DNA from: Bdellovibrionales bacterium
GTDB lineage: Bacteria; Bdellovibrionota; Bdellovibrionia; Bdellovibrionales; UBA1609
Direction of reading: 5' to 3'
Assembly: GCA_027459485.1 (NCBI GenBank)
Contig: DAIDIG010000009.1
Location: forward strand, 1-64,000
Length of the DNA stretch: 64,000 nt
Shown piece after piece: positions 34,315 to 61,584 of the stretch. The stretch's first letter is position 1, and every line of letters begins with the position of its first letter. The position numbers and the translations under genes are program-made. The notes beneath the pieces are model-generated. The model ran no database searches and was not told where the DNA came from. It worked only from the letters and a program-made list of their open reading frames with translations.

Positions 34315-34965
34315 TCATGGCGTTATCGTGTACTTGTACGTCTCTTCAAACAGGCGATCAAATCTAAGGATCTCCTCGCGAACTTCAGTCGGTGTCATTT
34401 TGCCAAGTTTTGCCAAATATTCTCGTTGAGATTTTGAAAGCCCATCATTTAGGGTCGAGGTCTGGCCAAGCACTCCACGATCAATCATGTTGTTCAACGT
34501 GTCGCCAACATTTTTGTGTGCGAATATCAATTTTGCCAACTCTTGACTGCGTGGCACAAAGGGCAGCTCGCGCGTTCCATCAAGCGACATTGCTTTGCCG
34601 GTTATTCGATACCGCCGTAGCAAAATCGAGTAGATGCGTATTTCTTCATCTAGTGATTTGAAAAGTTCAAGCTGCGATAAAAACTCAGCGAGCGTGGCTT
34701 CTTCTGGAATTAAATCGGATTGGTTGGCAAGGTAGTCAGCGCGGGCCTCACGCCATTGACCGGCTCCCATTTCGTTGAGTACATCGTCAAGCGCGATCTC
34801 ACCGGTTGCCTTGCCAGCGTCGTCAAGAAGCCCAGCCTCACGCATGAGGTTTCGTATATTGGGGAATGTGCCGACAGGCGCGTGGATGTAGCTGTCGCGT
34901 AAATCAGTAACCGATTGTTCAACTTCATTAAATAAATTTTCATCAGTCAAATTCAAGGGCTTCAT
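34315..34965 (-). CDS. hypothetical protein, 216 aa
   Basis: A soluble, helical, acidic protein with no signal or membrane segment. The C-terminal half (KSQREYLAKLGKMTPTEVRE) looks helical. No recognised domain. It is a single gene on the island between two convergent-looking intervals with short direct TGGTACA-like repeats. Confidence 0.55.
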   Translation of the reverse strand: MKPLNLTDENLFNEVEQSVTDLRDSYIHAPVGTFPNIRNLMREAGLLDDAGKATGEIALDDVLNEMGAGQWREARADYLANQSDLIPEEATLAEFLSQLELFKSLDEEIRIYSILLRRYRITGKAMSLDGTRELPFVPRSQELAKLIFAHKNVGDTLNNMIDRGVLGQTSTLNDGLSKSQREYLAKLGKMTPTEVREEILRFDRLFEETYKYTITP

Positions 34966-35046
34966 GCTTACAATTTTATTACGGGCAGACTTAAAAAATA
35001 AATTGGTATTTATAATTCGACCGGCAATTAATAGTAAAGGGTTGAC

Positions 35047-35835: not shown

Positions 35836-35886
35836 ATGATCACCGCGATCACGAAGTAAATCAAACAAAAAACTGTAGAGGCATCG

Positions 35887-37104
35887 TTGGCGCGATTTAT
35901 CTGGACAGAAAAATTGTTGATTGAAGCTGCTGCGAAATATGAATCGAAAACTGAATTTAAATCAGCTCACCCATCTGGATATGCGGCAGCCCGGCGTATG
36001 GGATTATTGAATCTTGTTTGCGCGCACATGAAGGCTAAAATCAAGCCTCCTGGGTATTGGCAAAAAATAGAGAACTTAAAAAGTGAGGCACGCAAATATA
36101 GAACAAGGTCCGATTTTGCAATGCAGTCCCAAGGTGCATACACCATCGCTAAAAGATTGGGCGTGTTAGACGAAATATGTGGTCACATGTCGCTGCAAGG
36201 AAATCGGTACTTTAGGGCGATTTATGTTTTCGAGTTTGAAAACAATATGGCCTATGTTGGTTTGTCCTATAATGTTGAAAAGCGTAAGCAAGCACATCTC
36301 AACAGCAATGGACCAGTCGGGCGTACCGCCAAATATTACAATTTCGCTTTCAAACAATTAACGGAATACCTTCCAAGAAAAAAAGCCAGACATTTAGAAG
36401 GCGCTTTTTTAAAAACGTATTTGGATAACGGATGGCAGATTCTAAATACTGCTAAAACGGGTGGGCTTGGGTCAGGCGATAAAATCACCACCGAAGACAT
36501 CAAAGCAGAAATAGCAAAATATAAATATTTAAAAGACTTTGCTGCGAATAGCCCCAGCATCTATGCCACAGCGAAAAATAGAAGGTTGCATGGCTTGTTT
36601 TCGCATTTGAAAAGAGTGAAAACACCAGATGGTACTTATTCAAAAGCCTACTGCAGAAAATTGGCAAAAAAATGTGGTTCTAGGGCTGAGTTCAAAAAAG
36701 CATTTCCGTCAGCATACTCGATATGTGTCAAAAAAGGCTGGATGGGTTCAATCTGTAAACACATGAAAAGACCTCTGCCTCATAATTTTAAGTATAACTA
36801 TGATAGATGCGCTAGCGAAGCTGCGAAGTGCACTAATGCAACCCAATTTAAAATGAGATACCCTGGTTCATTTAATGCCGCCCATAAAAACGGCTGGTAC
36901 AAAAGAATCACTCGCCACTTTGCTCGATTGATCAAAACGCCAGCCGGTTGGAACTTCGACAAATGTCTGAAGAAAGCAAAGCGATTCAGTTCCAAGGCAA
37001 ACTTTAGGAAGAGTGAGTACAACGCGTACAAATATGCGTGCAGACATAAATTTTTGGATAAAATTGAGCGTCAATTAGGTTGGAGCAAGAGAAACGAAAA
37101 ATAA
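35887..37104 (+). CDS. GIY-YIG endonuclease with six helical repeats
   Basis: The 405-residue protein contains a GIY-YIG core: AIYVFEFENNMAYVGLSYN, followed by EKRKQAH with the conserved arginine and EGAFLKTYLDNGWQILN with the glutamate. Around it are six copies of a repeat of about 38-45 residues (two before, four after), each with pattern A.K...R.EF....P.AY..A...GW...ICKHM. Such repeats occur in phage-linked nucleases and are thought to bind DNA. TTG start with AGAGG five bases upstream. A homing or defence nuclease is plausible. Confidence 0.75.
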   Translation: MARFIWTEKLLIEAAAKYESKTEFKSAHPSGYAAARRMGLLNLVCAHMKAKIKPPGYWQKIENLKSEARKYRTRSDFAMQSQGAYTIAKRLGVLDEICGHMSLQGNRYFRAIYVFEFENNMAYVGLSYNVEKRKQAHLNSNGPVGRTAKYYNFAFKQLTEYLPRKKARHLEGAFLKTYLDNGWQILNTAKTGGLGSGDKITTEDIKAEIAKYKYLKDFAANSPSIYATAKNRRLHGLFSHLKRVKTPDGTYSKAYCRKLAKKCGSRAEFKKAFPSAYSICVKKGWMGSICKHMKRPLPHNFKYNYDRCASEAAKCTNATQFKMRYPGSFNAAHKNGWYKRITRHFARLIKTPAGWNFDKCLKKAKRFSSKANFRKSEYNAYKYACRHKFLDKIERQLGWSKRNEK

Positions 37105-37174
37105 TCTAGTGTTGAACTTGCTGTAAAAATCGAAGTCGCAACCAAATTTTCTTAGGCGATACAGTCTCCACAGC

Positions 37175-37702
37175 TCAAGAGCATCCATGAAAGGCATACA
37201 CGATCAAAAGTATACCTCCAACCACCACCGTAATTGAAAAAATGGCGCCTAGGCCCCTGGAAATAAAAATGCCACCAATGAATTTGAAAGTTTCCAGGAT
37301 GCCCAGTTCCTTTATAAACGATCGAAATGGGACCCGACCATAAAAATGGTAACTTTTTTTAGATGAGCGCCGAACCAAATAAACTCCCAGCGACACAAGT
37401 GGGATGTAGAGTGCGCAAATTGCATAGATCGACAACCCAAGCGTATAATCGGCATCTTTAAAAATTGGCACAAATCCAAACATTGTAAATCCACCGGTAT
37501 TTACCGTGAAGAGCTGCTTAGGACTTGTGCCAGGCTTTAAATTTTTTTGGACTAATTCCTGAAGCGCCCGAATCTTTGCAACTTTCTTATCATTCTTTGC
37601 CTTCGCGCGAAAATGTCGCGCCAACCGAAATCCACAATTCGGACATGTTGCCGCCTGGGTTGACAATGATTTCCGACATTCAGGACATTCCATTATTGCC
37701 AA
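37175..37702 (-). CDS. zinc-ribbon membrane protein
   Basis: The 175-residue protein opens with a zinc ribbon (CPECRKSLSTQAATCPNCG) and then has a basic linker and about three membrane helices (LGLSIYAICALYIPLVSLGVYL, GLGAIFSITVVVGGILLIVYAF). A TTG at 37702 with GAGGGG eight bases upstream is the likely start. Domain type is common in bacteria; role unknown. Confidence 0.65.
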   Translation of the reverse strand: MAIMECPECRKSLSTQAATCPNCGFRLARHFRAKAKNDKKVAKIRALQELVQKNLKPGTSPKQLFTVNTGGFTMFGFVPIFKDADYTLGLSIYAICALYIPLVSLGVYLVRRSSKKSYHFYGRVPFRSFIKELGILETFKFIGGIFISRGLGAIFSITVVVGGILLIVYAFHGCS

Positions 37703-38261
37703 GTCGATTTCCCCTCGTGTCGCTGCGGCATTTCACTTTTCGGCGTTTCGTATTAAAAACTTATGGCGGGGCTTGGTCATGCCAATAAAATTTGGTGATG
37801 ACGTTACACTTCGATATATTTCATATTTAGGTTGTTACGCAAGTGACAGTGTGACCGGCTAAAATTGTGACAGCATTTTGTGACGTTAGGACCTTAAGCT
37901 GGCTGCAAAAGTCGCTACCGACCAAAAACACGGTGCGCTTATTAGCGTCCCAAAACCTTCACACGGCATTTGTTGCCACAACTCAAACCGATTGGGTGTC
38001 CAGCTAGTCCGCGCTGTTTATACGGCGTTTATCGCGGTCGGCATTTGTGCAACAACGGGTACAGCCCGAATCGAATATTGAATCCACGCGATGCTGATTT
38101 TGTTTACCTGGTCATTGTTCCAATACAAGGAAATGTGACCACCTAAACATTATTTAAATATGCTACGCGCCGGAACTGAACTACGTCGCCGCTGCGCTCC
38201 TATATCGCTTGTAACTCCCAGTATGTATTGATAGCGTCAGTCGATACAAGTGAGGGGCTAT
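37703..38261. other. gene-free stretch in the island
   Basis: No plausible coding frame of more than about 40 codons with a ribosome-binding site. A GAGGGG site at its right end serves the gene at 38262. Nothing else was recognised. Confidence 0.5.
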
Positions 38262-38696
38262 ATGGGTGACTGGCGCGATGAGCTAAAGCAAAATTTGAAA
38301 TCTCCAGAAGAAAAGGCGAGCGAAGCCGAAGACAAGGATGCGCGGGAGGTTCAAAGAATTAAAGACACTATTGCTTCAGCTCATAAAGATATGGTGACAG
38401 CGCTAAACGAAGTACCTGATTTGATCGCTAAGCAAAGAGCCATCAACATCCCCACCGTGATGGTTAGCGGAAATAAAGTAACGGTTTCTTCAAGTAATAA
38501 ATCTCTGGGCGTTGATTTTGCACCCGACGGTATGAGTATCGTGATTTTTGAGGACGGCAAGCTTTCAGACGAAGTCATCTACAATCGGATGAAGAAATGC
38601 CTTGAATCGAAATCGAACAAACTTCAAGTCGAGAGTGCCGATGCGTTTATCGGCAAGAAGATAAACAGTTTGCTAAGCTCTAACAGTAGCGATTGA
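38262..38696 (+). CDS. hypothetical protein of the island cargo, 144 aa
   Basis: The ATG at 38262 follows GAGGGG by four bases. The protein has a charged helical first third (ELKQNLKSPEEKASEAEDKD) and a beta-rich centre (VMVSGNKVTVSSSNKSLGVDF). No motif is known. It is the first of three closely spaced genes that end near the right attachment site. Confidence 0.6.
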   Translation: MGDWRDELKQNLKSPEEKASEAEDKDAREVQRIKDTIASAHKDMVTALNEVPDLIAKQRAINIPTVMVSGNKVTVSSSNKSLGVDFAPDGMSIVIFEDGKLSDEVIYNRMKKCLESKSNKLQVESADAFIGKKINSLLSSNSSD

Positions 38697-38700
38697 CCTA

Positions 38701-39342
38701 ATGGAAAAAGAAAGACAAACCGAGATAAGATTAAAGTATCAGGAGACAATTAAATCGCTCGACGATCTTCTGATTTCAGTTTTGAAACATGTTGATACAC
38801 TCAAAAATTCGGACGCAGTCAAGTTTGGAAAGTATGGTATTGGTAGGCGTATAAACCGTATTCGCCAATGCCATAGGCGTTTCTATGCTACCTTTCAAAA
38901 AGAGTGTGAACAAATTGAGGTATCGGACGACGAACGTTTTGAGCAAACTGCGATGCTAAATCTTTGCCTTATCGACATTGCGGGAGGACTCGATAACCTC
39001 GCTCGAATGATTTTGCTGGAAAAGAAGGTATCGCTGCCAAATCTAAAAATTTCCCTGTCGAAAGATGAGACGTTGGATCACATGCCGAAAAAACTTGTCC
39101 AGAAAATAAATATATACACTGACTGGCTAGATTACCTCAAAGAGTTCCGAGATCCTTTGGCTCACAGAATTTCACCATACGTCCTGCCATACGTCGTGTA
39201 CACCGATGGTCGCAAAAGCTACGAATCTTTCTACACCCATGACTTCGAGGAGACGGGTTTAGTGCATTTTCATCCCCAGATGATAGTGGACGGAATGACC
39301 TTTCATGAACTCATCAAGGCTGGCATAGAAGGTACAGCGTGA
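38701..39342 (+). CDS. hypothetical protein of the island cargo, 213 aa
   Basis: A soluble helical protein with an N-terminal helix bundle and a central conserved-looking segment (FRDPLAHRISPYVLPYVVY). RDxxAHR-type patterns occur in HEPN-like helical proteins, but the fold is not certain. It starts four bases after the first gene and overlaps the third by four bases. Confidence 0.6.
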   Translation: MEKERQTEIRLKYQETIKSLDDLLISVLKHVDTLKNSDAVKFGKYGIGRRINRIRQCHRRFYATFQKECEQIEVSDDERFEQTAMLNLCLIDIAGGLDNLARMILLEKKVSLPNLKISLSKDETLDHMPKKLVQKINIYTDWLDYLKEFRDPLAHRISPYVLPYVVYTDGRKSYESFYTHDFEETGLVHFHPQMIVDGMTFHELIKAGIEGTA

Positions 39343-39725
39343 AATTTTATCGACCGATTGAATTTGAGATTCCTGACGAATGGTGGATCAAATCCGGCAT
39401 GTCGAACTTCAAACCAACCACAAGTTCTTATACCCCAACGACCAGCTCTCGGTGGCCGACCACGATCGCTCGCATCTCAGATATTCAACCTGTACGGCGC
39501 GCCTGTGGTTTTGGTGGATTTAAATTGGACAAAATGATGCCGGTGCTTGAAGCGCTTGTGAATGGCATACCAATACCACGGATTGAAGTTCACGAGTTGC
39601 CTGGGACTAATGATTTTCGGTACGGAATGCGGAATGGCTTTCATAGATTTCACGCCTCCGCCGCCGCTGGTTTTGAATACATTCCAATAGAAATCTTACC
39701 GTATTTTGACATCAGAAAAGGATAG
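39339..39725 (+). CDS. ParB/sulfiredoxin-like domain protein
   Basis: A 128-residue protein with GTG start overlapping the previous stop. The second half reads PVLEALVNGIPIPRIEVHEL then RNGFHRFHASAAAGFEYIPI, the pattern of ParB-like nuclease/ATPase folds (conserved G-x-HR). It may bind or cut nucleic acid or hydrolyse a nucleotide. It ends about 125 bases before the proposed right attachment site. Confidence 0.6.
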   Translation: MKFYRPIEFEIPDEWWIKSGMSNFKPTTSSYTPTTSSRWPTTIARISDIQPVRRACGFGGFKLDKMMPVLEALVNGIPIPRIEVHELPGTNDFRYGMRNGFHRFHASAAAGFEYIPIEILPYFDIRKG

Positions 39726-45867: not shown

Positions 45868-46017
45868 GATAAAGGCGGGACTCAAGGCCAAGTCATGACG
45901 AAACTGTAGTGAAAAACTGGTTTCGAATTGACTGGTGACCAATGTAAAATACGCGTATGGAATAACTCGTCGATCGAATGAAAGGTATTGCTCGCAAAGA
46001 AGGCCCAACACTCCAAT

Positions 46018-47466
46018 ATGAGATCGCAACTTGTACTTTCACTTATATTAGCAATTTCGCCGACTGCGGTTTTGGCCCAATCGCCAAGCATTCCATCCGC
46101 AACGGTTATTAAACACGCGAAAAAGAAAAAATCGAAAAGTTCGGTCATATGGAATGTCGCCGCCCCCACTTTGACCGAAGAAGAAAAAGCCCGCGTGACT
46201 ATGGAAGACCAAGAGCCGGTGGTGGCGAAAGCCAAATATACTTGGACGCTCTCGGACGTCATCCGGATCGCCGACCAAAACAATCCGGATTTAAACGCGG
46301 CCCGCGCTAATTACAGAGCGGCTTCGAAGCGTGTGATCGAAGCGTTAAGCGGGTATTTGCCGCAAGTGGATGTTTCGGGCAATTTTGAGCAGACGACTTT
46401 GCCGACTCCGAGTGCCGGATCGGTCAATAACCTCGGCACCAGTTTGCCGTATACGGGCGTTATGGGTTCGGTGCGCCAGACGGTGTTCGATTTCGGCAAA
46501 GTGCTCGATCAAATTCTCGCCAACCGCGACTATCGAAAATCCGCCAATCAAGAGCGGGCTTCGATCAAATTGGATGTTAATTTGGCGGTTGAGAAGGCGT
46601 TTTTCAACGTGGCTTTGACCCAGAAATTGGTCGAAGTGGCGAAAACCGGCGTCTTGCAATTTGACGAAGTTCAACGGCGAATGGTGGTTCTCGTCAAAAC
46701 CGGCACACGTCCGAGCTTTGACTTGAGCCAGGCGAATTTAGAACTCGCGAAATCGCGTTTGGCGTTGATCAGTGCGCGCAATTCTCGAGACGTAGCGAAA
46801 GTCGCGCTTATTACGCTAATGGGTGTGCCGAATGATACTTCGTTTGCCATCAAAGAAAATCCACCGACGGTATTTAAACATGACCCGAAGAAATTGGACC
46901 TCTCGAAACTCACAGCCGAAGCTTTTGACAGCCGGCCCGAATTAAAAAGTAATCAATTCGCGGTGGCCGCGGCTGAAAAGTTGCACTCCCGAGCCATTAA
47001 AGATTTTCTGCCAACAGTAGATGCCGAAGCCTGGTACGGCAGGTTCATGCAGAACTATCCTTCACCCATCGCCAACTCGTGGGGTGCGGGTCTGACTTTG
47101 ACATGGAACATTTTTAACGGCTTCGACACGACCGCTCATATCGGCGAAATGTACGCGCGGATGAATGAGCAACAAGCGCAATTAGACAAAGAGCGCGACG
47201 CCATTTCGGCGGAAGTAGCCAATAGTTTGCTCGAGTTTCAACGAAGCGACATCAATATGATCGTCGCCAAGCAAAGTCTCGACTTCGCGAAAATCAATTC
47301 ACAATTGGCGCAAAAGCGCTATGACGCGAACGTTGCCACATTTTTAGAATTGCTCGTTGCCGACACGTCGCTCCTCAGCGCTCAGGCCGAGGACGTGAAG
47401 GCCCGCTATCAGAGAGAAATAGCTTTGGCTTCGTTACAGCGCGCGGTGAATGGGCCCCTTGAATGA
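46018..47466 (+). CDS. TolC-family outer-membrane channel of the RND pump
   Basis: The ATG at 46018 (a TTG at 45988 is possible) gives a signal peptide (MRSQLVLSLILAISPTAVLA). The 482-residue protein shows TolC hairpins: LSDVIRIADQNNPDLNAARA..., GYLPQVDVSGNFEQTTLP, WGAGLTLTWNIFNGF and LLEFQRSDINMIVAKQSLDF. It forms the outer-membrane exit of the efflux pump. The stop overlaps the adaptor start by four bases, so it is translated with the two genes behind it. Confidence 0.9.
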   Translation: MRSQLVLSLILAISPTAVLAQSPSIPSATVIKHAKKKKSKSSVIWNVAAPTLTEEEKARVTMEDQEPVVAKAKYTWTLSDVIRIADQNNPDLNAARANYRAASKRVIEALSGYLPQVDVSGNFEQTTLPTPSAGSVNNLGTSLPYTGVMGSVRQTVFDFGKVLDQILANRDYRKSANQERASIKLDVNLAVEKAFFNVALTQKLVEVAKTGVLQFDEVQRRMVVLVKTGTRPSFDLSQANLELAKSRLALISARNSRDVAKVALITLMGVPNDTSFAIKENPPTVFKHDPKKLDLSKLTAEAFDSRPELKSNQFAVAAAEKLHSRAIKDFLPTVDAEAWYGRFMQNYPSPIANSWGAGLTLTWNIFNGFDTTAHIGEMYARMNEQQAQLDKERDAISAEVANSLLEFQRSDINMIVAKQSLDFAKINSQLAQKRYDANVATFLELLVADTSLLSAQAEDVKARYQREIALASLQRAVNGPLE

Positions 47467-48626
47467 CAGACTTAAACCGAGGTGATTATTTGGAAAACGG
47501 CAAATCGCACGGACACTCGCATCCGCATCGCTCCCACTGGTTGCAGGACGTAAAAAAAGTTGTCTTTTCAAGAAACGGACTCATCGGCTTGGGCATTATC
47601 GCCGGATTAATCGCTATGCGAATCGGCGTGAATCTTTTAACTGAGAAACACAAAATAAAGTACGTCCCATCGGTTGGCGTGATTCAGCCGGTCGTACGCT
47701 CGATCGATTCAACGATGACATTGCCGGCAAATATCGAGGCGATCGAAGAGGCCAGTATTTTTTCGCACGTCACCGGCTATTTAAAAAAGATTTATGTGGA
47801 TGAAGGCGACAAAGTCAAAAAGAACGAACTATTGGCCACCATCGATGCGCCTGACATCGTCGATCAGTACAACAACACGAAAGCTGAGTACCAGTACCAG
47901 AAGGTGACTCGTGATCGTTATCAGCAACTTGTTCAGCAGCAAGTGATTTCGCAGCAGGAGTTCGACACGGTCGACGCCAAATACAATGAAGCAAAAGCTT
48001 TATACGAAGCCGCCGCGGCCAACCTTGCCTATACCTATATTCGTGCTCCGTTTGCCGGTAATATCGCTCGACGATATAAATACCCGGGTGATTTGATCAC
48101 GGTCGGTAAAGGGCAACAGCATCCGATATTCTTAGAGGTCAACGAAGGGACGTTGCGTATTTCGATCAACGTGCCGCAAACAAATGTCGCGGCGGTCAGT
48201 TTGGGCGAAACGGTTGACATTCGTGTCGATGCGTTCCCGAACGAGGTGTTTAAGGGTGAAATTTCGCGCATCGATGACCAGTTAGACCCGACAACCAAAA
48301 CGCAGCGGGTGTTGGTGGATATTAAAAATACCGACAATTTGCACGCCGGCATGTTCGCGAATGTGATTTTGGATTTTGCCCACAAGGATAATGCGCTCAC
48401 GTTACCCCAAGACGTGATCGAGACCGAAGGCGACAAAAGCTATGTATTTTTGCTCGTCGATAATACGGCCAAGAAAACACCGATCAAGACAGGAATAAAA
48501 GACGGCACTGTCGTCGAAATTACAGATGGCTTGAAGGCAACGGATCAGGTCATTTCGTCTCAAAGCGCCCAGTTAGTGGATGGCATGAAGGTAAGACCCG
48601 TTCAATCAACACCACATCAGGGGTAA
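47463..48626 (+). CDS. RND efflux periplasmic adaptor (membrane fusion protein)
   Basis: A 387-residue adaptor with one N-terminal membrane helix, preceded by a His-rich segment (KSHGHSHPHRSH) in the cytoplasmic leader. The barrel-sandwich lipoyl motifs (ASIFSHVTGYLKKIYVDEGD...VKKNELLATIDAPD), a helical hairpin, and a beta-barrel region (YTYIRAPFAGNIARRYKYPGD, LFLEV-like) are in normal order. It bridges the RND pump and the TolC channel in the periplasm. Confidence 0.9.
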   Translation: MTDLNRGDYLENGKSHGHSHPHRSHWLQDVKKVVFSRNGLIGLGIIAGLIAMRIGVNLLTEKHKIKYVPSVGVIQPVVRSIDSTMTLPANIEAIEEASIFSHVTGYLKKIYVDEGDKVKKNELLATIDAPDIVDQYNNTKAEYQYQKVTRDRYQQLVQQQVISQQEFDTVDAKYNEAKALYEAAAANLAYTYIRAPFAGNIARRYKYPGDLITVGKGQQHPIFLEVNEGTLRISINVPQTNVAAVSLGETVDIRVDAFPNEVFKGEISRIDDQLDPTTKTQRVLVDIKNTDNLHAGMFANVILDFAHKDNALTLPQDVIETEGDKSYVFLLVDNTAKKTPIKTGIKDGTVVEITDGLKATDQVISSQSAQLVDGMKVRPVQSTPHQG

Positions 48627-48632
48627 ACGAAC

Positions 48633-51600
48633 TTGGTACAGTCGGCCTTAAAAAATCCGTACACAATTATCGTCTCGTTTTTGATGGTTTTTGTGATCGG
48701 GTTGTTTGCGCTCATGAAGATGCCACTCGATATTTTGCCTGTCTTTCGGTTGCCCGCCGTGATGGTCGTCACGACTTACACCGGTATGCCGCCCGATATG
48801 ATGGAGATGGACATCACCAACCGCCTCGAGCGTTGGTTGGCGCAAGCCTCGGGGCTCGATCACATTGAATCGCGCTCGCTGCCGCAAGTGAGTATTGTGA
48901 ATTTATTTTTTCAGCCGGGCGTCGACCCGAACAATGCGCTCACTCAGGTCAGCAGCCTTGTTTCGTCTGACTTGCACTATTTGCCGCCCGGCACGCTCCC
49001 GCCAATCGTGATGGCGTACGACCCGACCGCCAACTTGCCTGTCGGCCTTGTAACAGTCCACACCGATCACGCCACCCAGGCGAAAATGTGGGACGAATCG
49101 AACTTTATCATTCGCCCGGCTTTCAACTCGGTACCGGGTGCCGTCGCGCCGGTTGTTTTCGGCGGTAAGATTCGCCAGGTGATGGTCTATCTCAATCGAG
49201 AAAAATTACTGGGCCACAACATCGCCCCGCTCGATGTGGTGAATACGCTGAAAACCGGTAACGCGATGATCCCGACCGGTGACGCCAAAATTGGCAACTT
49301 CGACTACATGATCACGAGTAACGGGATGGTGCCGAGTGTTGATGCGTTTAACGACATCCCGATTACAGTCGACAATACCGGTGCGCCGATTTTTATCAAA
49401 GACGTCGGTGAAGCGAAAGACTCATCGGCGGTGCAAACTGAAGCCGTGCAGGTAAATGGCGTATTGCAAACCTACGTGCCCATTTTTCGCGGTGTCGGCA
49501 GTAACACGCTCAACGTCGTGGCGGGTATAAAAGCCGAGATCCCAAAAGTTTTGAATTCCTTGCCAGATGGGACGAAGCTTCGCTTCTTATTTGACCAATC
49601 GGTCAACGTACGTGACGCGGTATTTGATGTGATTCGAGAGCTTGTCGTGGGCGTTTTGTTGGCCTCGATCGTCATCTTTTTCTTTCTCGGCAATCTGACA
49701 CCGACATTTATTGCGAGTGTGGCGATCCCGCTTTCTGTCATCGGGTGTATGGCGGGGCTTTACTTTATGGGTGAATCTCTGAACTTGATGACTCTCGGCG
49801 GTCTGGCCCTGGTGACGGGGCCTCTGATCGACATGGCGGTCGTGATCTTAGAAAACATCGAACGTCATTTGGAGTTAGGTAAGCTGCCGAAAGACGCAGC
49901 ACTTGATGGTACGTCCGAAGTGACGTTACCGGTTTTGGTGTCGGCGCTCGCGTTAATCATTGTGTTTTTTCCGGTCGTTTTTTTCGAGGGCCTTGGCAAA
50001 GACTTGTTTTCGCCGATGGCTTTGTCTGTGGCCATTGCCGTTATCATTTCATTTTTCTGTGCGACCACATTGGTGCCGCTTGCCGCTTCGAAGTTTTTTA
50101 AGCCGCACGAAAAAGGCCACGGCGACGAAGCTCGACATGAAGATGAGAAGCGCCAATGGGTGGCCATTCGCATGTTTAATAAATATTACGGAATATTGCG
50201 CGATAAGTACGTCTCGGTGCTAGACGCGGCCATCGGCAAGCCTCACGTTTTTGTCGCGGTGGTCGTTATGGTGATCGTTGTGTCGCTGGGGCTTGTGCCT
50301 ATGCTCGGTTCCGAGTTTTTCCCGGTTGCCGATCACGGTCAATTTTTCATTCGAGTTCGCGGTGTCGTGGGCACACGAATCGAAAAAACGGTCGAAATGG
50401 TCGCCAAAGTATCGACGGCTATTCGACAAGACTTACCGAAAAATTCCGTCGACGTGATTTTGGCTAACTCAGGCGTGTTGCCCAGTTGGGCGGCCGCTTA
50501 TACGCCGAACTCGGCCACTCACGAAGCTTTACTCGAAGTGGAAATGAAAGAAGGTCATTCGGCGCGAAATGCGATCAACACTCTGAGGCAGAAATTAGCC
50601 CCCGCATTCCCCGCCGTTCGTTTTGCATACACGATGATCGACCCGGTTTCGTCGGCGCTGAACTACGGCGCGCTATCACCGATTGACCTGCGCGTTGTCG
50701 GCCCCGATTACGATCAAAGTTCAAAAATCGCCGGCAATATTTTAAACCAAATGAATTCAGTTCGTGGCATAACAGACTCATTTATCGAGCAAGAACTCAA
50801 TTATCCGTCTATGCATATTGATGTGAACCGCGTGAAATCAGCGTACTTGGGCCTCACAGCCGATAAGGTGATCAAAAACGTGATTACAGCTCTCGGCTCG
50901 AGCGTGCTGTTCTCGCCAAACTTTTGGGACGACCCGGTTTCAGGCAACAACTATTACGTGGGCGCCATTTACCCCGATAACGAAATTACCCGCGAGGTCA
51001 TCGCGAATATTCCGATCACCCCGCAAAAAACAATCTTAGGTAAATCGCAGCCGACGCTTTTGCGAAACATCGCGACGATTACTCCTGAAATTATACCCAC
51101 GCAGTTCACGCATATTCGATTACAACGCGTGATGGATGTGAAAGCGAATGTGACGGGGCGTGATATCGGCTCGGTGGCTTCTGACATCGATAAAATCGTG
51201 AGCCATGTGAAAATGCCCAAAGCCTACACGGTTGAGTGGGGCGGCGCGATCGCGGCGATGCGCGCGTCATTCGGTAACATGGGCGGCGGTATGGCGCTTT
51301 CTCTCGTGCTTATTTTTCTTTTGATGGTGGCGCAGCTGAAGTCGTTTATCGATCCGCTTCTGATTTTGGCTACAATCCCCGCCGGTTTTACCGGTGTTTT
51401 TTGGATGCTGTTTTTAACCAATACCACGCTGAATATTCAGTCGATGATGGGTATGATCATGCTCATTGGTATTATCGTCGCGAACTGCGTAATTTTGACG
51501 GATTTCGCGAACCAACGTCTGGCGAGTGGCTTAACTCCGTTGATGGCGATGCGCGAGGCGGGTTTGACTCGTTTACGCCCAATTCTTATGACGGCAATTT

Positions 51601-51782
51601 CAACCGTCATGGCATTGTTGCCGTCGTCGTTATCTGGCGCGAATGCTCCGCTAGCTCGCGCAGTGATCGGTGGGTTACTCACGGGTACGTTTCTCACGTT
51701 GACGTTTTTGCCGGCCTTGTATGTGCTAGTCAAAAGCCGTCATGAGTTACCCGGTGCTACGCCGACGAACCCGGTGAGCTAA
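48633..51782 (+). CDS. RND-family efflux permease
   Basis: A 1049-residue inner-membrane transporter with twelve helices in two halves, each followed by a large periplasmic loop. The N-terminus (LKNPYTIIVSFLMVFVIGLFALMKMPLDILP) and the TGPLIDMAVVILENIERHLE helix are typical; usual second aspartate of the D-D pair reads Met. It uses proton flow to push drugs or other molecules out with the adaptor and TolC-type gene. The start is a TTG six bases after the adaptor stop. Confidence 0.9.
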   Translation: MVQSALKNPYTIIVSFLMVFVIGLFALMKMPLDILPVFRLPAVMVVTTYTGMPPDMMEMDITNRLERWLAQASGLDHIESRSLPQVSIVNLFFQPGVDPNNALTQVSSLVSSDLHYLPPGTLPPIVMAYDPTANLPVGLVTVHTDHATQAKMWDESNFIIRPAFNSVPGAVAPVVFGGKIRQVMVYLNREKLLGHNIAPLDVVNTLKTGNAMIPTGDAKIGNFDYMITSNGMVPSVDAFNDIPITVDNTGAPIFIKDVGEAKDSSAVQTEAVQVNGVLQTYVPIFRGVGSNTLNVVAGIKAEIPKVLNSLPDGTKLRFLFDQSVNVRDAVFDVIRELVVGVLLASIVIFFFLGNLTPTFIASVAIPLSVIGCMAGLYFMGESLNLMTLGGLALVTGPLIDMAVVILENIERHLELGKLPKDAALDGTSEVTLPVLVSALALIIVFFPVVFFEGLGKDLFSPMALSVAIAVIISFFCATTLVPLAASKFFKPHEKGHGDEARHEDEKRQWVAIRMFNKYYGILRDKYVSVLDAAIGKPHVFVAVVVMVIVVSLGLVPMLGSEFFPVADHGQFFIRVRGVVGTRIEKTVEMVAKVSTAIRQDLPKNSVDVILANSGVLPSWAAAYTPNSATHEALLEVEMKEGHSARNAINTLRQKLAPAFPAVRFAYTMIDPVSSALNYGALSPIDLRVVGPDYDQSSKIAGNILNQMNSVRGITDSFIEQELNYPSMHIDVNRVKSAYLGLTADKVIKNVITALGSSVLFSPNFWDDPVSGNNYYVGAIYPDNEITREVIANIPITPQKTILGKSQPTLLRNIATITPEIIPTQFTHIRLQRVMDVKANVTGRDIGSVASDIDKIVSHVKMPKAYTVEWGGAIAAMRASFGNMGGGMALSLVLIFLLMVAQLKSFIDPLLILATIPAGFTGVFWMLFLTNTTLNIQSMMGMIMLIGIIVANCVILTDFANQRLASGLTPLMAMREAGLTRLRPILMTAISTVMALLPSSLSGANAPLARAVIGGLLTGTFLTLTFLPALYVLVKSRHELPGATPTNPVS

Positions 51783-53661: not shown

Positions 53662-54036
53662 ATGAAAGCATTTCTAATGCTCGGCCTGTGTTTAAGTGTT
53701 GTTGTACCTGCAATGGCTGCGACTGCCAAATTTTCAAAACTGGAATGCTCGGGCACTGACGGGCAAGCCATGTTCATTTCAGGGCTGGGTTCGAATCGCC
53801 TCGAAATCAAAGGCTCGTATTATATGGGTAATTTGACTGTGAAGCGCGCCACCGACGGCGACTGTAAAGGGCGAAAGTCATTTTGCGCTGAAATCGGCGG
53901 GTGGATGCTTAACATTCCGCAGCGGTTGGCTAATGGTGAACAGCGCTCCGGTTATGTTTGGGAAAATGGCGACGCCGATGACCGGCCGGAAAATAATCGG
54001 TTAGGCGATCGCTACCGGTGCATTGCCGTTCGTTAG
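53662..54036 (+). CDS. small secreted protein, hypothetical
   Basis: The ATG at 53662, after GAGGGAAAC, gives a signal peptide (MKAFLMLGLCLSVVVPAMAA) and a mature part of about 100 residues with five cysteines. No domain is recognised. It begins 20 bases after the transpeptidase-like gene and overlaps the end of lon by four bases. Confidence 0.7.
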   Translation: MKAFLMLGLCLSVVVPAMAATAKFSKLECSGTDGQAMFISGLGSNRLEIKGSYYMGNLTVKRATDGDCKGRKSFCAEIGGWMLNIPQRLANGEQRSGYVWENGDADDRPENNRLGDRYRCIAVR

Positions 54037-56378
54037 TGCGTCTTCGCTATTTGTGTGTCTGTGCGATAATCGGCGGGCCGATCATCCTCTAGGGCGGCTT
54101 GAATTCCAGCTCGGACGTCTTCGACAAATATGAATTTCATTTCATTGCGAGCCACGGCCGGCAACTCAACTAAATCTTTTGCATTGGCTTTCGGCAAGAT
54201 CACTCGATATATACCGGCTCGTCGCGCGGCCAATACTTTTTCTTTGATGCCGCCAACGGGTAACACCAGGCCGCTCAATGTAATTTCTCCGGTCATCGCG
54301 GTATCTTTTCGCATTGGGCGATGGGTGTAAAGCGAAGCAATCGCCGTGGCAATTGCAAGACCGGCAGATGGCCCGTCTTTGGGTATTGCGCCCGCTGGCA
54401 CGTGCACATGAATTCCCGATTTGCTGGGGATTTCAAGATTGCCCACTTCGCCGGACGCGACGAAACTCAGGGCCGCTTGTATTGATTCGCGCATGACTTC
54501 GCCGAGTTGACCCGTCATTGTCAGTCCTTCGCGATTGTTTACGACCTTTGTTTCAATATAAAGAACATCACCTCCGGCTTCGGTCCAAGCAAGACCAGTT
54601 GCGACCCCTGGCCGGGCCTGTTTGCGGGCGCGTTCCTGAAAAAATTTTTCAGGGCCGAGGTAAGTTGCGAGCTGTTCAGCTTTGACTTCGGGAGTCTCTG
54701 TTTGGCCTTGCGCAACCGCCGTGGCGATTTTGCGACAAATGCGGCCAAGAGAGCGATCGAGATCCCGCACTCCCGCTTCACGGGTATAATTACGTATGAT
54801 GGATTGTATCGCGCCGTCACGAATAGTTGCGGACTTCAAACCGGCATTTTCAATTTGGCGCGGTAAAAGATAGCGCTTCGCAATTTCCAATTTTTCTTCT
54901 TCGGTGTAGCCCGAGAGGCGCAGAATCTCCATGCGATCGAGGAGCGGGCCCGGAATTGTTTCGAGAGTGTTGGCAGTCGTGATGAAAAAGACCTTTGACA
55001 AATTAAAATCGAGATCCAAATAATTATCGCGAAACGAGACGTTTTGAACGGGGTCAAGAATCTCCATCAGCGCGGCGGCTGGGTCTCCGCGAAAATCGCG
55101 ACCGAGCTTATCAATTTCGTCAAGCATCAGTACGGGGTTGTTCACCTTCGCGCGCCGGATGCCTTGAATAATTCGTCCTGGCATTGCGCCGATGTAAGTG
55201 CGCCGGTGTCCGCGCAGTTCGGCTTCATCGTGCAATCCACCGAGACTGATGCGTTCGAAAACCCGCCCGAGAGCGCGCGCGATCGATTGCCCGAGTGAAG
55301 TCTTGCCTGTACCGGGCGGGCCGACTAAACACAAAATTGGTGACTTGGCTTTCGGGTTCAATTTCATGACAGCCAAATGCTCGATGATACGATCTTTGAT
55401 GTCTTTGAGATTGAAGTGATCGGTATCTAGAACCTGGCGTGCGAGGGTGAGATCCAGTATGTCGTTGGTTGATTTGTTCCACGGCAACTCCAAAATTAAA
55501 TCGATGTACGAGCGGACGACTTGAAACTCAGGCGACGCCGCCTGCAGCTGCGACAAGCGGTTGAGCTCGCGCTCGAATTCGGGTAGCACGTGGGTCGGAA
55601 GTTCGGCTTGTTTCGCTCGTATTCGCAACGCTTCGACATCGGTGTCTTGACCGCCTTCGCCGAGTTCTTCTTGAATGGCGCGCAGTTGCTGACGAAGCAT
55701 GTATTGACGTTGATCTTTGGTCATTTCGTTTGTCGCTCGAGACGCGATTTTTTTTCGCAAATCGAGAACCTGCTGCTCGTGACGCAAATACGAAGTCGTG
55801 AGTTTGAGGACCTCTGCGGCTGAAGTGGCCTCAAGAATTTTTTGTTCTTTCTCGAAGCTGAGTCCGAACAATGTCGCGAGCAAATAGGCTTTGCCAGCGG
55901 GGTTGCTGACGTTGGCCACGATGTCGGGCATTGAAATTTGAGCGTCGGGTTGAGACAACATCTGGATATTTGTCGCGATTTCAAGCAAATTCCCCTCAAG
56001 CGCTTCGATTTGCAAGGGATCGTCCGCCTGAAGCGGTAACGGCCGGTACGTGGCATGAAAGTATTCGTCTTCAAGCTTTAAATCGAGTAGTTCGACGCGC
56101 TCGATGCCGTTCACGAGTATTGTGACGGATGACGACGAGCGCATGATTTTCTTAATTGTGGAGCGCGTGCCGATTTTAAAAATATTGTCAAACGAGACTT
56201 CATCGTCTTCGGGGCGCAACTGCGTGACGGAGATAATCGATTTGTCTTCGCGCTCGAGCGCCCGGTCGATCGCCGTCAGTGAAATCTTTCGCGCCGCCGA
56301 AATCGGAAAGAACAGCTGCGGAAAAACGACGGTATTCTTAAGCGGTAAAACCGGCAAAGTCCTCTTGGAGTTTATCAT
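54033..56378 (-). CDS. lon: ATP-dependent Lon protease
   Basis: A 781-residue Lon: N-terminal LON domain (LPVLPLKNTVVFPQ), coiled-coil, AAA+ module with Walker A GPPGTGKTS (353-361) and Walker B VLMLDEIDK, and the serine-lysine protease site PKDGPSAG (Ser671) with GGIKEKVLAARRAG (Lys714). The spacing between Ser and Lys equals that of E. coli Lon. It degrades damaged and regulatory proteins in the cytoplasm. Its start overlaps the histidine-kinase stop by four bases, so the two form an operon. Confidence 0.97.
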   Translation of the reverse strand: MINSKRTLPVLPLKNTVVFPQLFFPISAARKISLTAIDRALEREDKSIISVTQLRPEDDEVSFDNIFKIGTRSTIKKIMRSSSSVTILVNGIERVELLDLKLEDEYFHATYRPLPLQADDPLQIEALEGNLLEIATNIQMLSQPDAQISMPDIVANVSNPAGKAYLLATLFGLSFEKEQKILEATSAAEVLKLTTSYLRHEQQVLDLRKKIASRATNEMTKDQRQYMLRQQLRAIQEELGEGGQDTDVEALRIRAKQAELPTHVLPEFERELNRLSQLQAASPEFQVVRSYIDLILELPWNKSTNDILDLTLARQVLDTDHFNLKDIKDRIIEHLAVMKLNPKAKSPILCLVGPPGTGKTSLGQSIARALGRVFERISLGGLHDEAELRGHRRTYIGAMPGRIIQGIRRAKVNNPVLMLDEIDKLGRDFRGDPAAALMEILDPVQNVSFRDNYLDLDFNLSKVFFITTANTLETIPGPLLDRMEILRLSGYTEEEKLEIAKRYLLPRQIENAGLKSATIRDGAIQSIIRNYTREAGVRDLDRSLGRICRKIATAVAQGQTETPEVKAEQLATYLGPEKFFQERARKQARPGVATGLAWTEAGGDVLYIETKVVNNREGLTMTGQLGEVMRESIQAALSFVASGEVGNLEIPSKSGIHVHVPAGAIPKDGPSAGLAIATAIASLYTHRPMRKDTAMTGEITLSGLVLPVGGIKEKVLAARRAGIYRVILPKANAKDLVELPAVARNEMKFIFVEDVRAGIQAALEDDRPADYRTDTQIAKTH

Positions 56379-58378
56379 TGCGCCTTTAAATCACCCGGTG
56401 ATTTACGCAAAACCTCTAAAACGTTCTCGACCAGAAGTTTCGGCTGAACCGGTTTTATAAGATGACGCTGATAGCCCGATTTATAAGCCCGCTCCTTTTC
56501 TCCGGGTCCTGTGCGCGCCGTGAGAGCAATGGCCGGTCGATGTTTATGCGCGCCCTTCTTTTCTTCGATGATTCGAGTTTGCTCCATGAACAGAAAACCA
56601 TCCATGATTGGCATATTGATATCCGATATAATAAACTGAATGTTGTTTTTAGAAACAAGGTCGAGCGCTTCGGCTCCGTTATTGGCGGTCACTACATCAG
56701 CCCCCGCATTTTTGAGCACAATTCGAATCAGTTCGACAGCATCGGGGCTATCATCGACCACGAGTACATTCAGGCCTGTGAGCGGCAAAATTGAGCAATC
56801 GGTCGCTCTGCCTGGTTCAACCGCTCGAATCGGAATTTGCACTGTAAACGTTGCGCCTTTGCCTAATCCAGCGCTGCTGGCTTTGATTGAACCGCCGTGC
56901 GCTTCGACAAGGTCTTTAGAAATCTTAAGGCCGAGTCCCAATCCGCCCTTTTGCCCAGAGGGGCTTTCTGCCTGCCAGAGCCGATCGAATAAATGCGGCA
57001 AATCGCGCGGGTCTATTCCATGACCCGTGTCAGAGACTTGAAAAATGAAACTGCCTTCGCTACGGCTACTTCGAATCGTAACCTGCCCCTTTTGATTCGT
57101 CCACTTCACGGCATTTGAAAGTAGGTTCCATAAGATTTGCTGTAAGCGAACGGCATCGCAGACGACTGTCTTTTCGTCGGTCGCTATGTCCTTCAGAATC
57201 GCAATATCTTTCGATCGCGCGGCGAACTCCACGGCTTTGATCGCGTTGTCTACGATGTCTTCAACGCTGTGGGTATTCACCGAAAGTGAAAATTTACCGG
57301 TCAGAATTCGCGACATATCGAGCAGATCTTCAACCAAGTGCAACTGTACTTTAGCATTTCTTTTAATCACCTCGATAGCCGTTTGATGTTCTTGGCTACC
57401 GGCAGGGAACTTGTCGATAATGTCGCTATACCCGAGAATTATATTCAGCGGCGTCCGCAGCTCGTGCGAGAGATTCGAAATAAACTCATCCTTTGCCTTA
57501 TTCATATTCACAAGCTGGCGGTTACTTTCGCGCAATTCTTCGGTCGTCTTTTTTAACTGCGCGTCTATTAAGCGAACTTCAGCTAAATCCCGCACTACGG
57601 ATGAACACCCCACAACCTGTCCGCTCAAGTTTCGAATTGGTGAAATGGTTTCGGATACATGAACTTCGGCGCCATCCTTTCGCAGTCGAATAGTTTCAAA
57701 AGGGGCGACGGTAACGCCCGCGGCAACTTGATCCAGGACGGACCTTTCTTCGCTGTGTCTTTCTATTGGCACAACCGCATAAATCGAACGGCCAACCATT
57801 TCGTCTGATGTAAATTGCAGAATTTTTTCTGCGCCTTTGTTCCATGTTAAAATTGTGCCGTCGAGGGATTTCGACAGAATCGCGTCTTGCGACGAATTTA
57901 CGATCGCTGCAAGGCGCTCTGAATCTCGCACGCGCTCGGCAATTCGGCTTTCTAAACTAGCTTTCATGGCACTAAGTTCTTTATTTTTATCGTCGAGCTG
58001 TTTGTAGCTGGGGAGTTTTACGGCGAGCGGGATCGTCGGCCACAAAACAATCGCCGTCAGGACGGAAGCCGCTGCGGTAATAGCTTTGATCACACCTTCA
58101 AGTGCGTAGTTCGGAATCCAAATTGTGTAAATCGCCGCCAAATGGGTCAGCCCGCATCCGAGGATGAAAATTCCAAAAAGAATAAAGATGCTTCTATATT
58201 TAATATCCCGCCGCGTTCTCACGAAATAAAGCAGTGCGATCGGGATCGAGAAATAAGCCAGGGCAATCAAGCCGTCAGAAATGACGTGCAACCAAAGAAT
58301 ATTCGGTTGCCATAAAAAGCAATGCCCGTGCGGCAGAAAATGTGCATCGCTGAAAAATTTAAAAATCGAAGCCGTCAT
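56375..58378 (-). CDS. ethylene-receptor-like hybrid histidine kinase
   Basis: A 667-residue sensor. The first 115 residues have three or more membrane helices with ISDGLIALAYFSIPIALLYF and LGCGLTHL, matching the ethylene-binding domain of plant ETR1. Asp35, Tyr42, Pro46, Cys75 and His79 stand exactly ten positions after ETR1 Asp25, Tyr32, Pro36, Cys65 and His69; the Cys/His pair binds copper. Next are a PAS domain, HisKA (SHELRTP, His305), HATPase (NLLSNAVKW, GLGLGL) and a receiver with Asp586. It probably senses ethylene or a related small ligand and signals through phosphotransfer. It is translated with lon. Confidence 0.88.
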   Translation of the reverse strand: MTASIFKFFSDAHFLPHGHCFLWQPNILWLHVISDGLIALAYFSIPIALLYFVRTRRDIKYRSIFILFGIFILGCGLTHLAAIYTIWIPNYALEGVIKAITAAASVLTAIVLWPTIPLAVKLPSYKQLDDKNKELSAMKASLESRIAERVRDSERLAAIVNSSQDAILSKSLDGTILTWNKGAEKILQFTSDEMVGRSIYAVVPIERHSEERSVLDQVAAGVTVAPFETIRLRKDGAEVHVSETISPIRNLSGQVVGCSSVVRDLAEVRLIDAQLKKTTEELRESNRQLVNMNKAKDEFISNLSHELRTPLNIILGYSDIIDKFPAGSQEHQTAIEVIKRNAKVQLHLVEDLLDMSRILTGKFSLSVNTHSVEDIVDNAIKAVEFAARSKDIAILKDIATDEKTVVCDAVRLQQILWNLLSNAVKWTNQKGQVTIRSSRSEGSFIFQVSDTGHGIDPRDLPHLFDRLWQAESPSGQKGGLGLGLKISKDLVEAHGGSIKASSAGLGKGATFTVQIPIRAVEPGRATDCSILPLTGLNVLVVDDSPDAVELIRIVLKNAGADVVTANNGAEALDLVSKNNIQFIISDINMPIMDGFLFMEQTRIIEEKKGAHKHRPAIALTARTGPGEKERAYKSGYQRHLIKPVQPKLLVENVLEVLRKSPGDLKAQ

Positions 58379-58447: not shown

Positions 58448-58930
58448 TCAATGTCTTGTCTCGCGCTCGTGTTGTTGGCGAATGTCCGGTAAGTTCGTCA
58501 AATCAGTAATTGCTCGAATTAAAATATTCAGAAGATGATTGGCATTAATAATGCTGACAAGATCGCCGCTCGAGTTGACGATGGGTAATCGGCTGATACC
58601 GTGAGCTTTCATCTTTGCGATCAACTGAAATATATCGTCGGCTTCGGATGCCGCGTCGATTGGTTTCGACATAATATCGCCAACTAAAATCTTATCTATC
58701 GGCACATCTTGCGCGCACGTTTCAATTGTAATGTCGCGATCGGTCAGCATGCCGACCGGTTTAGCAATTCCATTTTGGCGATCGATGACAACCACATCGC
58801 CGACATGGTTTTCACGCATGAGTTTCGCAGCGTCGTTCACTGTGGCCATCGCATCTACGCAGACGACTTTTGAAGGGCTCCAATAAGCGCTCTTATATTG
58901 ATTTTTTAATGATCGATGTGCAGGTTCCAT
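58448..58930 (-). CDS. CBS-domain protein
   Basis: A 160-residue protein of two CBS units: CVDAMATVNDAAKLMRENHV...PVGMLTDRDI and DIMSKPIDAASEADDIF...ISRLPIVNSSGDLVSIINANHL. Paired CBS domains bind adenine nucleotides or SAM and work as energy or ligand sensors. No partner domain is attached. It stands alone, next to the histidine kinase. Confidence 0.85.
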   Translation of the reverse strand: MEPAHRSLKNQYKSAYWSPSKVVCVDAMATVNDAAKLMRENHVGDVVVIDRQNGIAKPVGMLTDRDITIETCAQDVPIDKILVGDIMSKPIDAASEADDIFQLIAKMKAHGISRLPIVNSSGDLVSIINANHLLNILIRAITDLTNLPDIRQQHERETRH

Positions 58931-58972: not shown

Positions 58973-59692
58973 TTATTGCAGATAGGTGCGGCAAGCAGCT
59001 ACTTTATAATGCGCTTTATGTGGTGAAACCGATTCGTGATGGTGCGATTCGCGAAGCATATTTTCGAGCCTTTTTGACAGGTCGATCTGCCAAGTTGGCG
59101 CGTGTGCCCAATCAGCCAGGTGGCAAGCCCCAATGTATTCGCCGGTCTCTTCGACTTTGAGCTCGTCTCTACGAAATAAGCAGGTGATTGTCCAATCGAC
59201 GATTCGCTCGAGTTCATCCATCTGTTTGCGAATTCTTTCGACTTTATCTTTGTGCATAACGACTCTCAGATGACCATAGAAAAAGGCATTTTTAACTAAT
59301 GTTTCGATTCGATTCAATTCACTGCGTGCGTGTATGCCAGAGGCTCCGGCTTCGCCGAGAGCGTCCATATTGACGCCGTGATAACGAGCTAAAATGGTCG
59401 CGATATCCTCTTTGCCTTGATACCCGTACTTGCGCAATTCTGACAGGGTCATGACTTTCGGTATGTCGTGATACGTGGCATATTCCTCAACCAATTCGAG
59501 CGTTAGATCCGGAAAACGACCGCGGGCCATTAAATAAGTTTCAGGTAACTCTCGTTGCATATCACGGATATGTCGGCGACTGGCCATTCGAAATTGACTG
59601 CTCGTCACCCCGAAACTTCTCGAGCCAAAGCCAATCGTGGCGAGTGTGGCGAAAATCATTAAAGAGCCAAGGGCGACTTTTTGAAATCGCAT
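58973..59692 (-). CDS. exported protein, hypothetical, 239 aa
   Basis: An N-terminal hydrophobic stretch (VALGSLMIFATLATIGFGSRS) resembles a signal peptide or anchor. The remainder is helical and charged, with a His-rich tail (RESHHHESVSPHKAHYKV). No domain is known. It lies between a CBS protein and the glucoamylase-like gene on the same strand. Confidence 0.6.
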   Translation of the reverse strand: MRFQKVALGSLMIFATLATIGFGSRSFGVTSSQFRMASRRHIRDMQRELPETYLMARGRFPDLTLELVEEYATYHDIPKVMTLSELRKYGYQGKEDIATILARYHGVNMDALGEAGASGIHARSELNRIETLVKNAFFYGHLRVVMHKDKVERIRKQMDELERIVDWTITCLFRRDELKVEETGEYIGACHLADWAHAPTWQIDLSKRLENMLRESHHHESVSPHKAHYKVAACRTYLQ

Positions 59693-59799: not shown

Positions 59800-61584
59800 T
59801 TAGAGCACTTCGCTCCACGACGGGCTGACTGCGAATGCGGCGTTAATTAAACCGACGTGAGAATAAGCTTGCGGAAAATTTCCCAGCTGAGTGGGGGCAG
59901 CCGGTAAAAAATGCTCGGAAAAAAGCCCCACATGATTAGCACCGCCGACGGCATCTTGAAGTATCGCGCGTGCTTCTTCACGATACCCCAACCGTGCAAG
60001 ACCCTGCGCAATCCAGAATGAACAAATGACGAATGCTGAAGCCGGTTTGCCGAAATCATCCTGTCTCAGATAACGGTAGAAAAAAGATGATTGCGGCCGC
60101 TTTGTATCAATTGCCAGATGCTTTTGGATATCGCGAATAGTTTCAAGGCACAGTTTTTCATTCGGAAATCTCAAGACCGAAGCCAGCGCTAAAGCCGCGT
60201 CGTAGTTGGAGTCGGCGGGACCATTTCGAATCGAGGCGTCTATTTTTGCCTTTTCTACAGCGGTCTCTGCGCGGTCACGTGCGCGAGTAAAATCAAGCGG
60301 AAAATCTTTCAGGTACCCTCGATGTTGAATTCGCACTGCGCGTTCAAGCCCGGCCCATGACATGAGATTTGTAAAAGTATGTTCTTGCCAACCGTTGCGG
60401 ACTTCCCACAACCCGGCGTCAGCAGCGGAGATCGATCGCTCGCACAGTCGAGCGAGATTGGCGAGAAGGTCTTCATGAGTTTTATCGCGTAAGTGTATGA
60501 AGCGCTCGTCTAAATAAATCGGCGCCAACGTCAAAACCAATTCACCGTAAACGTCGTTTTGAATATGATCCGCTGCTTGGTTGTTTGTGCGCACGGGCGC
60601 GTGCCCGTTATGGCCAATCCAGTTTACGTGCGTTGTCTCAGGTAGAGGCAAATCTTGGCTGAGTGTGTAGACCGGCGCCAGCCTTTCGTGCGATTGCTCA
60701 TGTTTTTGGGCTATGCCGAGAAGAAATTTTAAAAAGCCTTCCATCTCTTCGAAGTGGCCGAGATTGTGAAAGGCGGATAGCACGAAGTATGCATCGCGCA
60801 ACCAACAATAGCGGTAGTCCCAGTTTCGTGGTGCACCGGCTTCTTCAGGCAAACTCGTCGTGAGCGCTGCAAGTATCGCTCCGGTATCTTCATAACAATG
60901 AAGCTTCAGCGCCAACGCCGATCGAATAGTTTCGCGCTGAAATAAACTGGGGATCGAGCAGTGCTTCACCCAGGTTCGCCAGTAATCTTCAGTTCGCGCA
61001 AGAAATCGTTCGCTGATACGCGCGACATCTTCTTCAACCGCTGAGCTCCATGTTAAAACAAAATGCAGCTTTTCTTTAAGCGGGAACGAAGTCTCTTCGC
61101 ACAAATAGGTCAATGGCATGTTGGTCGTTAATCGAAGTGTATCGTTTCGGCATTCAAAACTCAGATGGCTGTTGCCGCGGATGGGCTTCGCCTGTTCTTT
61201 ACTCCACCCTGAAACCGGCCGGCAGCTCACTTGAATAGTCGGTGAGCCCGACAAGGGCTCGACGATACGGCAAATCATCATAGGCCGATACGTTCGCTCA
61301 TGCTGGATGAAGCGCGGGCAGAAATCGATGATGCGAAATGAATCGTGATCAGAAGTCGAAATGTCGGTTATCAAAACATTAGTGTTTTCTAAATAGTATT
61401 GCCGGCTTGAGATGTTTTCGTTGGCTTCAGTGGCATGTATCGAAAAACGACCGCCCTCGGGGTCGAGCAGGCGGCCGAATACTGGGTCGCTATCCGGCCT
61501 CGGCAAACATAGCCAATCGATGGATCCGGCTATTGAAACCAAAGCCGAAATTTGACAGTTGCCAATCAAGCCGTACGGATACAT
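59800..61584 (-). CDS. glycoside hydrolase family 15 protein
   Basis: A 594-residue GH15 protein: N-terminal domain starting YGLIGNCQISALVSIAGSIDWLCLPRPDSDP, then the alpha/alpha barrel with RNWDYRYCWLRDAYFVLSAF, NDVYGELVLTL, GLWEVRNGWQEH (catalytic Glu) and GLFSEHFLPAAPTQLGNFPQ (second Glu). This layout is that of bacterial trehalase-/glucoamylase-like enzymes that cleave alpha-linked glucose chains. It lacks a signal peptide, so it acts in the cytoplasm on trehalose, glycogen or similar. Single gene. Confidence 0.9.
   Translation of the reverse strand: MYPYGLIGNCQISALVSIAGSIDWLCLPRPDSDPVFGRLLDPEGGRFSIHATEANENISSRQYYLENTNVLITDISTSDHDSFRIIDFCPRFIQHERTYRPMMICRIVEPLSGSPTIQVSCRPVSGWSKEQAKPIRGNSHLSFECRNDTLRLTTNMPLTYLCEETSFPLKEKLHFVLTWSSAVEEDVARISERFLARTEDYWRTWVKHCSIPSLFQRETIRSALALKLHCYEDTGAILAALTTSLPEEAGAPRNWDYRYCWLRDAYFVLSAFHNLGHFEEMEGFLKFLLGIAQKHEQSHERLAPVYTLSQDLPLPETTHVNWIGHNGHAPVRTNNQAADHIQNDVYGELVLTLAPIYLDERFIHLRDKTHEDLLANLARLCERSISAADAGLWEVRNGWQEHTFTNLMSWAGLERAVRIQHRGYLKDFPLDFTRARDRAETAVEKAKIDASIRNGPADSNYDAALALASVLRFPNEKLCLETIRDIQKHLAIDTKRPQSSFFYRYLRQDDFGKPASAFVICSFWIAQGLARLGYREEARAILQDAVGGANHVGLFSEHFLPAAPTQLGNFPQAYSHVGLINAAFAVSPSWSEVL

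Follow-up and report, generated by a model that had tools for sequence, protein, structure and literature searches.

The window considered here is the whole stretch of 64,000 nucleotides at positions 1 to 64,000 of contig DAIDIG010000009.1, from a Bdellovibrionales bacterium (GenBank assembly GCA_027459485.1). Its subject is a gene for an ethylene-receptor-like hybrid histidine kinase that runs into a gene for the protease Lon. The kinase gene occupies 56375..58378 on the minus strand, the position given in the initial annotation of this DNA, and its open reading frame (ORF) encodes 667 amino acids. The lon gene follows on the same strand at 54033..56378 and encodes 781 amino acids. As the initial annotation had noted, the kinase stop overlaps the lon start by four bases: the sequence ATGA at 56375..56378 (minus strand) combines the ATG of lon with the TGA of the kinase, and an AAAGG-type ribosome site in the window sequence lies ahead of the lon start. 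The host had been described as a Bdellovibrio-type genome, in agreement with a tree of Lon proteins in which a relative from the same order and a metagenome-assembled genome labelled Bdellovibrionaceae form a 100/100 group.

Ethylene-binding domain and kinase

Identification of the sensor relies on a profile match to the ethylene-receptor domain ETR1_N (PF25487) in Pfam, which covers kinase residues 27-122 (58013..58300, minus strand) and scores 129.2 bits (E 7e-38) against a curated cut-off of 27. The match, for which the initial annotation had proposed a profile search as a check, is far beyond chance. Seven residues of Arabidopsis ETR1 are required for ethylene binding according to alanine scanning cited in PMC11819568. 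All seven are present in the window kinase at a constant shift of +10, with D35, Y42, I45, P46, I72, C75 and H79 corresponding to ETR1 D25, Y32, I35, P36, I62, C65 and H69. The five kinds of residue named initially (Asp, Tyr, Pro, Cys, His) are borne out by this alignment. Hydropathy agrees with an AlphaFold2 model built from 60 sequences, which predicts three membrane helices, at residues 25-55, 62-87 and 91-120 (mean pLDDT 86). The model places D35 within helix 1 and C75 and H79 within helix 2, which agrees with the Cu(I) site of ETR1, formed by Asp25, Cys65 and His69 (PMC12643061). A fold search of the predicted domain against the PDB returned a best match of E 0.49, so that no similar solved structure was found for comparison.

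An alignment of 116 sampled ETR1_N domains, 36 from the same phylum fetched by profile and the others by sequence pattern, places these residues in context. All seven are intact in 89 of the 116 domains and in 19 of the 36. As judged by alignment, the window kinase retains in full a residue set that is commonplace in an already known bacterial family. The alignment also reveals a PHGHC motif before helix 1 (kinase residues 16-20; 58319..58333, minus strand), which is exact in 28 of the 36 profile-fetched domains and absent from Arabidopsis ETR1; it is possibly a second metal site or a copper-loading motif. In eleven loci of the same phylum (L007, L185-L193 and L195), which form a supported subclade of the domain tree (SH-aLRT 97), the proline that corresponds to ETR1 Pro36 is replaced by Ser or Thr. 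The tomato Never-ripe receptor is changed at this proline, and the domains of the subclade may bind a different ligand. Two further ETR1_N-type domains (L012 and L013) lack both PHGHC and the copper-site Cys, and L013 also lacks the His; they belong to the same family and probably hold no copper.

Downstream of ETR1_N, Pfam detects a PAS domain (residues 154-264), a HisKA domain (295-359; 57302..57496), an HATPase_c domain (408-517) and a C-terminal receiver of the Response_reg family (538-653; 56420..56767), all on the minus strand. The PAS-HisKA-HATPase-receiver hybrid kinase of the initial annotation is recovered with intact motifs, including the H, N and G boxes and the phosphoacceptors His305, in SHELRTPL, and Asp586. 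The nearest full-length homologue found, in a genome of the same family (G027; L009/L045, at L045:8303-10282), is 42% identical over 660 amino acids and shares the domain order and all seven residues. A Nostoc homologue has the same domain order at 36% identity, and a gammaproteobacterial homologue (L063) contains an extra fused Hpt domain, which supports a phosphorelay.

Some relatives of the domain stand free of any kinase. These ETR1_N proteins of 120-150 amino acids retain all seven residues, and each is followed, at -53 to +5 nucleotides, by a separate histidine kinase gene as assigned with Pfam. The pairs lie at L050 (8124-8525 with 6684-8123, minus strand), L048 (5055-5477 with 5452-6840), L049 (4644-5009 with 4930-7527), L183 (kinase 1848-2906) and L182 (kinase from 795 onward), the last four on the plus strand. 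Four of the five free-standing proteins share one starred clade of the domain tree. By gene order, such a pair resembles an ethylene receptor split into two proteins, an arrangement that may be more novel than the receptor-lon locus.

The ethylene-receptor domain in bacteria is a known and widespread family, and the receptor alone has bacterial precedents. Across 84,980 species of bacteria and archaea, a single scan confirmed 497 loci encoding an ETR1_N relative, the best 80 of which are distributed over Pseudomonadota, Myxococcota, Bdellovibrionota, Verrucomicrobiota, Cyanobacteriota, Bacteroidota, Acidobacteriota and others. Matches are present in 46 of 291 genomes of the window's phylum and in 12 of 60 relatives, and the window genome harbors a single ETR1_N gene. 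None was detected in five genomes of the same genus, three of which are only 76-78% complete. The Bdellovibrionota rows are dispersed over the domain tree, where support is low; this patchy, scattered distribution is what would be expected of repeated transfer and loss. The rows nearest to the window domain are alphaproteobacterial, with a support of 83 that is too weak to name a donor. A literature search for an ethylene receptor in Bdellovibrio returned nothing relevant.

The accessory lon and its surroundings

The lon product is a full-length Lon by Pfam and by TIGR00763, with 857 bits against an equivalog cut-off of 608. The Ser671/Lys712 dyad, the Walker A motif at 353 and the Walker B region at 414 are in place, and by these motifs the protease is catalytically intact. 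The initial annotation took it for the main protease, which is wrong: the window genome contains three full-length lons, and the window copy is the third, 46% and 43% identical to the two housekeeping copies and in another clade. The housekeeping genes lie on contigs C6 and C10, one behind clpP-clpX (L047) and the other behind dnaJ...dksA (L046), and both arrangements recur in the same-genus genome G004 (L052 and L051), with gene names read by eye from translations. The window copy has neither the clpP-clpX-lon nor the dksA-lon synteny and does not group with the Lons of order relatives.

The nearest relatives of the window Lon are 54-61% identical and come from Acidobacteriota and Eremiobacterota; two distant genomes of the same phylum also harbor relatives, at 50-54% identity. 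A maximum-likelihood tree of 55 Lons unites the window Lon and these relatives in a clade with 100/100 support that excludes the housekeeping copies. No lon of this clade was found in the five same-genus genomes. The simplest reading is that the window lon is an apparently horizontally acquired accessory gene. A plasmid origin was rejected, as the best plasmid matches reach only 45-47%. The upstream neighbor within the clade, read by eye from translations, is often Hsp20 (L138, L166 and L169) or ClpB (L163 and L173); a literature search for Lon with Hsp20 stress islands found no paper.

Three genes lie upstream of the kinase on the same minus strand. A CBS-pair protein of 160 amino acids (58448..58930) lies 69 nucleotides upstream of the kinase and is itself preceded by an uncharacterized protein of 239 amino acids without a Pfam family (58973..59692) and a GH15 glycosidase assigned by Pfam (59800..61584), with gaps of 42 and 107 nucleotides between them. 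The first two are possible members of the operon. A GH15 gene 79% identical to that of the window is present in a same-genus genome but is followed there by a metallo-beta-lactamase-like gene, on a short contig (5.6 kb), as would fit a block in the window genome that is particular to its lineage. A conserved island with the CBS and GH15 genes was rejected, since the GH15 orthologues of four relatives have other neighbors and homologues of the 239-residue ORF are scattered and weak. Read by eye, the GH15 orthologues of order relatives at L205, L206 and L207 adjoin HAD-type phosphatases, unlike that of the window; these look like trehalose phosphatases.

Elsewhere in the window, the region 23013-39725 displays lower GC, resolvase- or recombinase-like ORFs and many small unknown ORFs when read by eye, and is apparently an integrated element. 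An outer membrane efflux protein, a CusB/HlyD-type fusion protein and an RND transporter are encoded in tandem at 45988-51782.

Interpretation of the locus

The kinase gene codes for a hybrid sensor kinase of the bacterial ethylene-receptor type with a probable Cu(I)/ethylene site, accompanied by an apparently acquired accessory Lon that is likely to be co-translated with it; we hold this explanation with good confidence. The sequence itself shows the domain, its residues, the overlap, the lon as third of its kind in the genome and the patchy distribution. Copper, ethylene, the sign of the response, the phosphorelay and the coupling are inferred from it, as the initial annotation also said of ethylene sensing and the link to protein turnover. 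The three-helix N-terminal domain most likely holds Cu(I) through D35, C75 and H79 in the inner membrane, and it would bind ethylene, which is the likely ligand, or another small alkene. The ligand would lower autophosphorylation at His305, by analogy with the model proposed for two characterized bacterial receptors, AzoEtr1 and SynEtr1 (PMC11819568). Less phosphate would then reach the kinase's own receiver at Asp586 and, through an HPt protein, a regulator. Through the ATGA overlap, receptor and downstream Lon are probably co-translated. A signaling link from ethylene to the window Lon is possible, and the hypothesis that the receptor governs Lon activity appears decidedly unlikely.

Several observations weigh against this explanation. 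Lon is absent from the flanks of the 80 nearest ETR1_N loci, 61 of which have at least 2.5 kb downstream, and it is absent beside the 36 profile-fetched loci of the phylum, whose flanks extend only ~1.5 kb. The 36 are a weak test because they include the window locus itself, whose lon is beyond the stored flank; the 61 are a strong one. No sensor kinase was seen upstream of ~13 related lons. A linkage conserved nowhere in the sample may carry no function. The overlap suggests one transcript for kinase and lon, which it does not in itself prove, and in a promoter and terminator scan such sites were no more frequent than chance. Seventeen of the 36 profile-fetched domains have at least one of the seven residues changed, and ligands may vary in the lineage accordingly. 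The window genome encodes a CopA-type Cu ATPase, as do 14 of 14 control genomes, and this near-universal presence makes it weak support for a copper site.

How the pairing arose is weighed by the same contexts. The ~115 other ETR1_N loci, with flanks of varying length, and the ~13 related lons yield no second genome with the pair, and no conserved receptor-lon operon was found among them; the kinase homologue of G027 lies among response-regulator genes without a lon. Receptor and accessory Lon might nevertheless form a functional module, in which the ethylene perceived determines how much Lon is present or which substrates it takes, for example to reshape the proteome in a certain habitat or life stage. 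The overlap favors such a module, as does the fact that neither the kinase nor this lon was found in the five same-genus genomes searched; both are plausibly recent gains. Likewise, the GH15 gene of the same-genus genome leads into other genes, and related lons behind chaperone genes place this Lon clade in stress operons elsewhere. With the pair in one genome and the nearest kinase homologue apart from lon, the module remains unlikely. A recent ethylene-to-proteolysis module, with the receptor kinase controlling, by translational coupling and signaling, what an accessory Lon dedicated to it puts out, is more doubtful still, and no ethylene-receptor/Lon arrangement was found among the papers or genomes searched. 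A positional accident, in which lon landed behind the kinase gene with its own promoter and the overlap has no regulatory meaning, would explain why two patchy genes are linked in a single genome. Yet a separate promoter and leader would have to lie within the coding sequence of the kinase, as the overlap leaves no other space. Four-base ATGA junctions typically indicate translational coupling, from which co-translation of kinase and Lon is a likely outcome, and the AAAGG-type site before the lon start points the same way. An accident is on balance rather unlikely. In the receptor-lon pair, two genes of patchy distribution were probably brought together within this one lineage.

The ligand may also be something other than ethylene, such as another alkene, carbon monoxide or copper, at the same Cu(I) site. 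The site residues fix the metal chemistry and not the ligand, the extra PHGHC motif is conserved here and missing from plant ETR1, the Ser/Thr-for-Pro36 subclade suggests ligand drift within the phylum, and SynEtr1 senses light too (PMC11819568). Against this, all seven residues, P46 among them, are retained in the window domain, as in the tested ethylene binders, and a different ligand seems improbable. Binding of ethylene by a co-translated receptor remains the preferred account. The window gene adds the Bdellovibrio order, which has no obvious plant partner, to the groups with an intact ethylene-receptor domain. Should the receptor prove active, the sensing of ethylene by bacteria that lack such a partner becomes testable. 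What is unusual, as far as gene order and phylogeny indicate, is the four-base overlap of the receptor with an extra, apparently imported lon; the neighbor is novel, the receptor family known.

Comparison with known systems

Arabidopsis ETR1 shares all seven residues with the window kinase and is likewise a hybrid kinase with a C-terminal receiver. In contrast, identity over the domain is ~35%, ETR1 has a GAF domain where the window kinase has PAS, and it lacks PHGHC. Plant ethylene receptors signal mostly without kinase output. The G027 kinase resembles the window kinase along its full length but differs in its location. The Lons of Acidobacteriota and Eremiobacterota (e.g. L153, L141 and L143) are close to the window Lon in sequence and clade, whereas their genes adjoin Hsp20, ClpB or unrelated genes instead of a sensor kinase.

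Two bacterial receptors allow a closer comparison. SynEtr1 (slr1212) of Synechocystis binds ethylene, as cited in PMC11819568. Like the window kinase, it carries an ETR1_N domain on a histidine kinase, and it signals by phosphotransfer. Unlike it, SynEtr1 is also a light sensor and acts on slr1213 and csiR1 (PMC11819568), and no such neighbors lie at the window locus. AzoEtr1 of Azospirillum brasilense binds ethylene directly through residues 1-130 (PMC11819568). It has the same three-helix N-terminal domain and seven residues, followed by PAS and histidine kinase domains, and the next gene overlaps its stop. In contrast to the window kinase, AzoEtr1 itself carries no receiver, and the overlapping gene encodes its response regulator; here the receiver is fused and the overlapping gene encodes Lon. 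A co-translated accessory Lon would give the window kinase a concrete candidate output unlike that of either characterized bacterial ethylene receptor.

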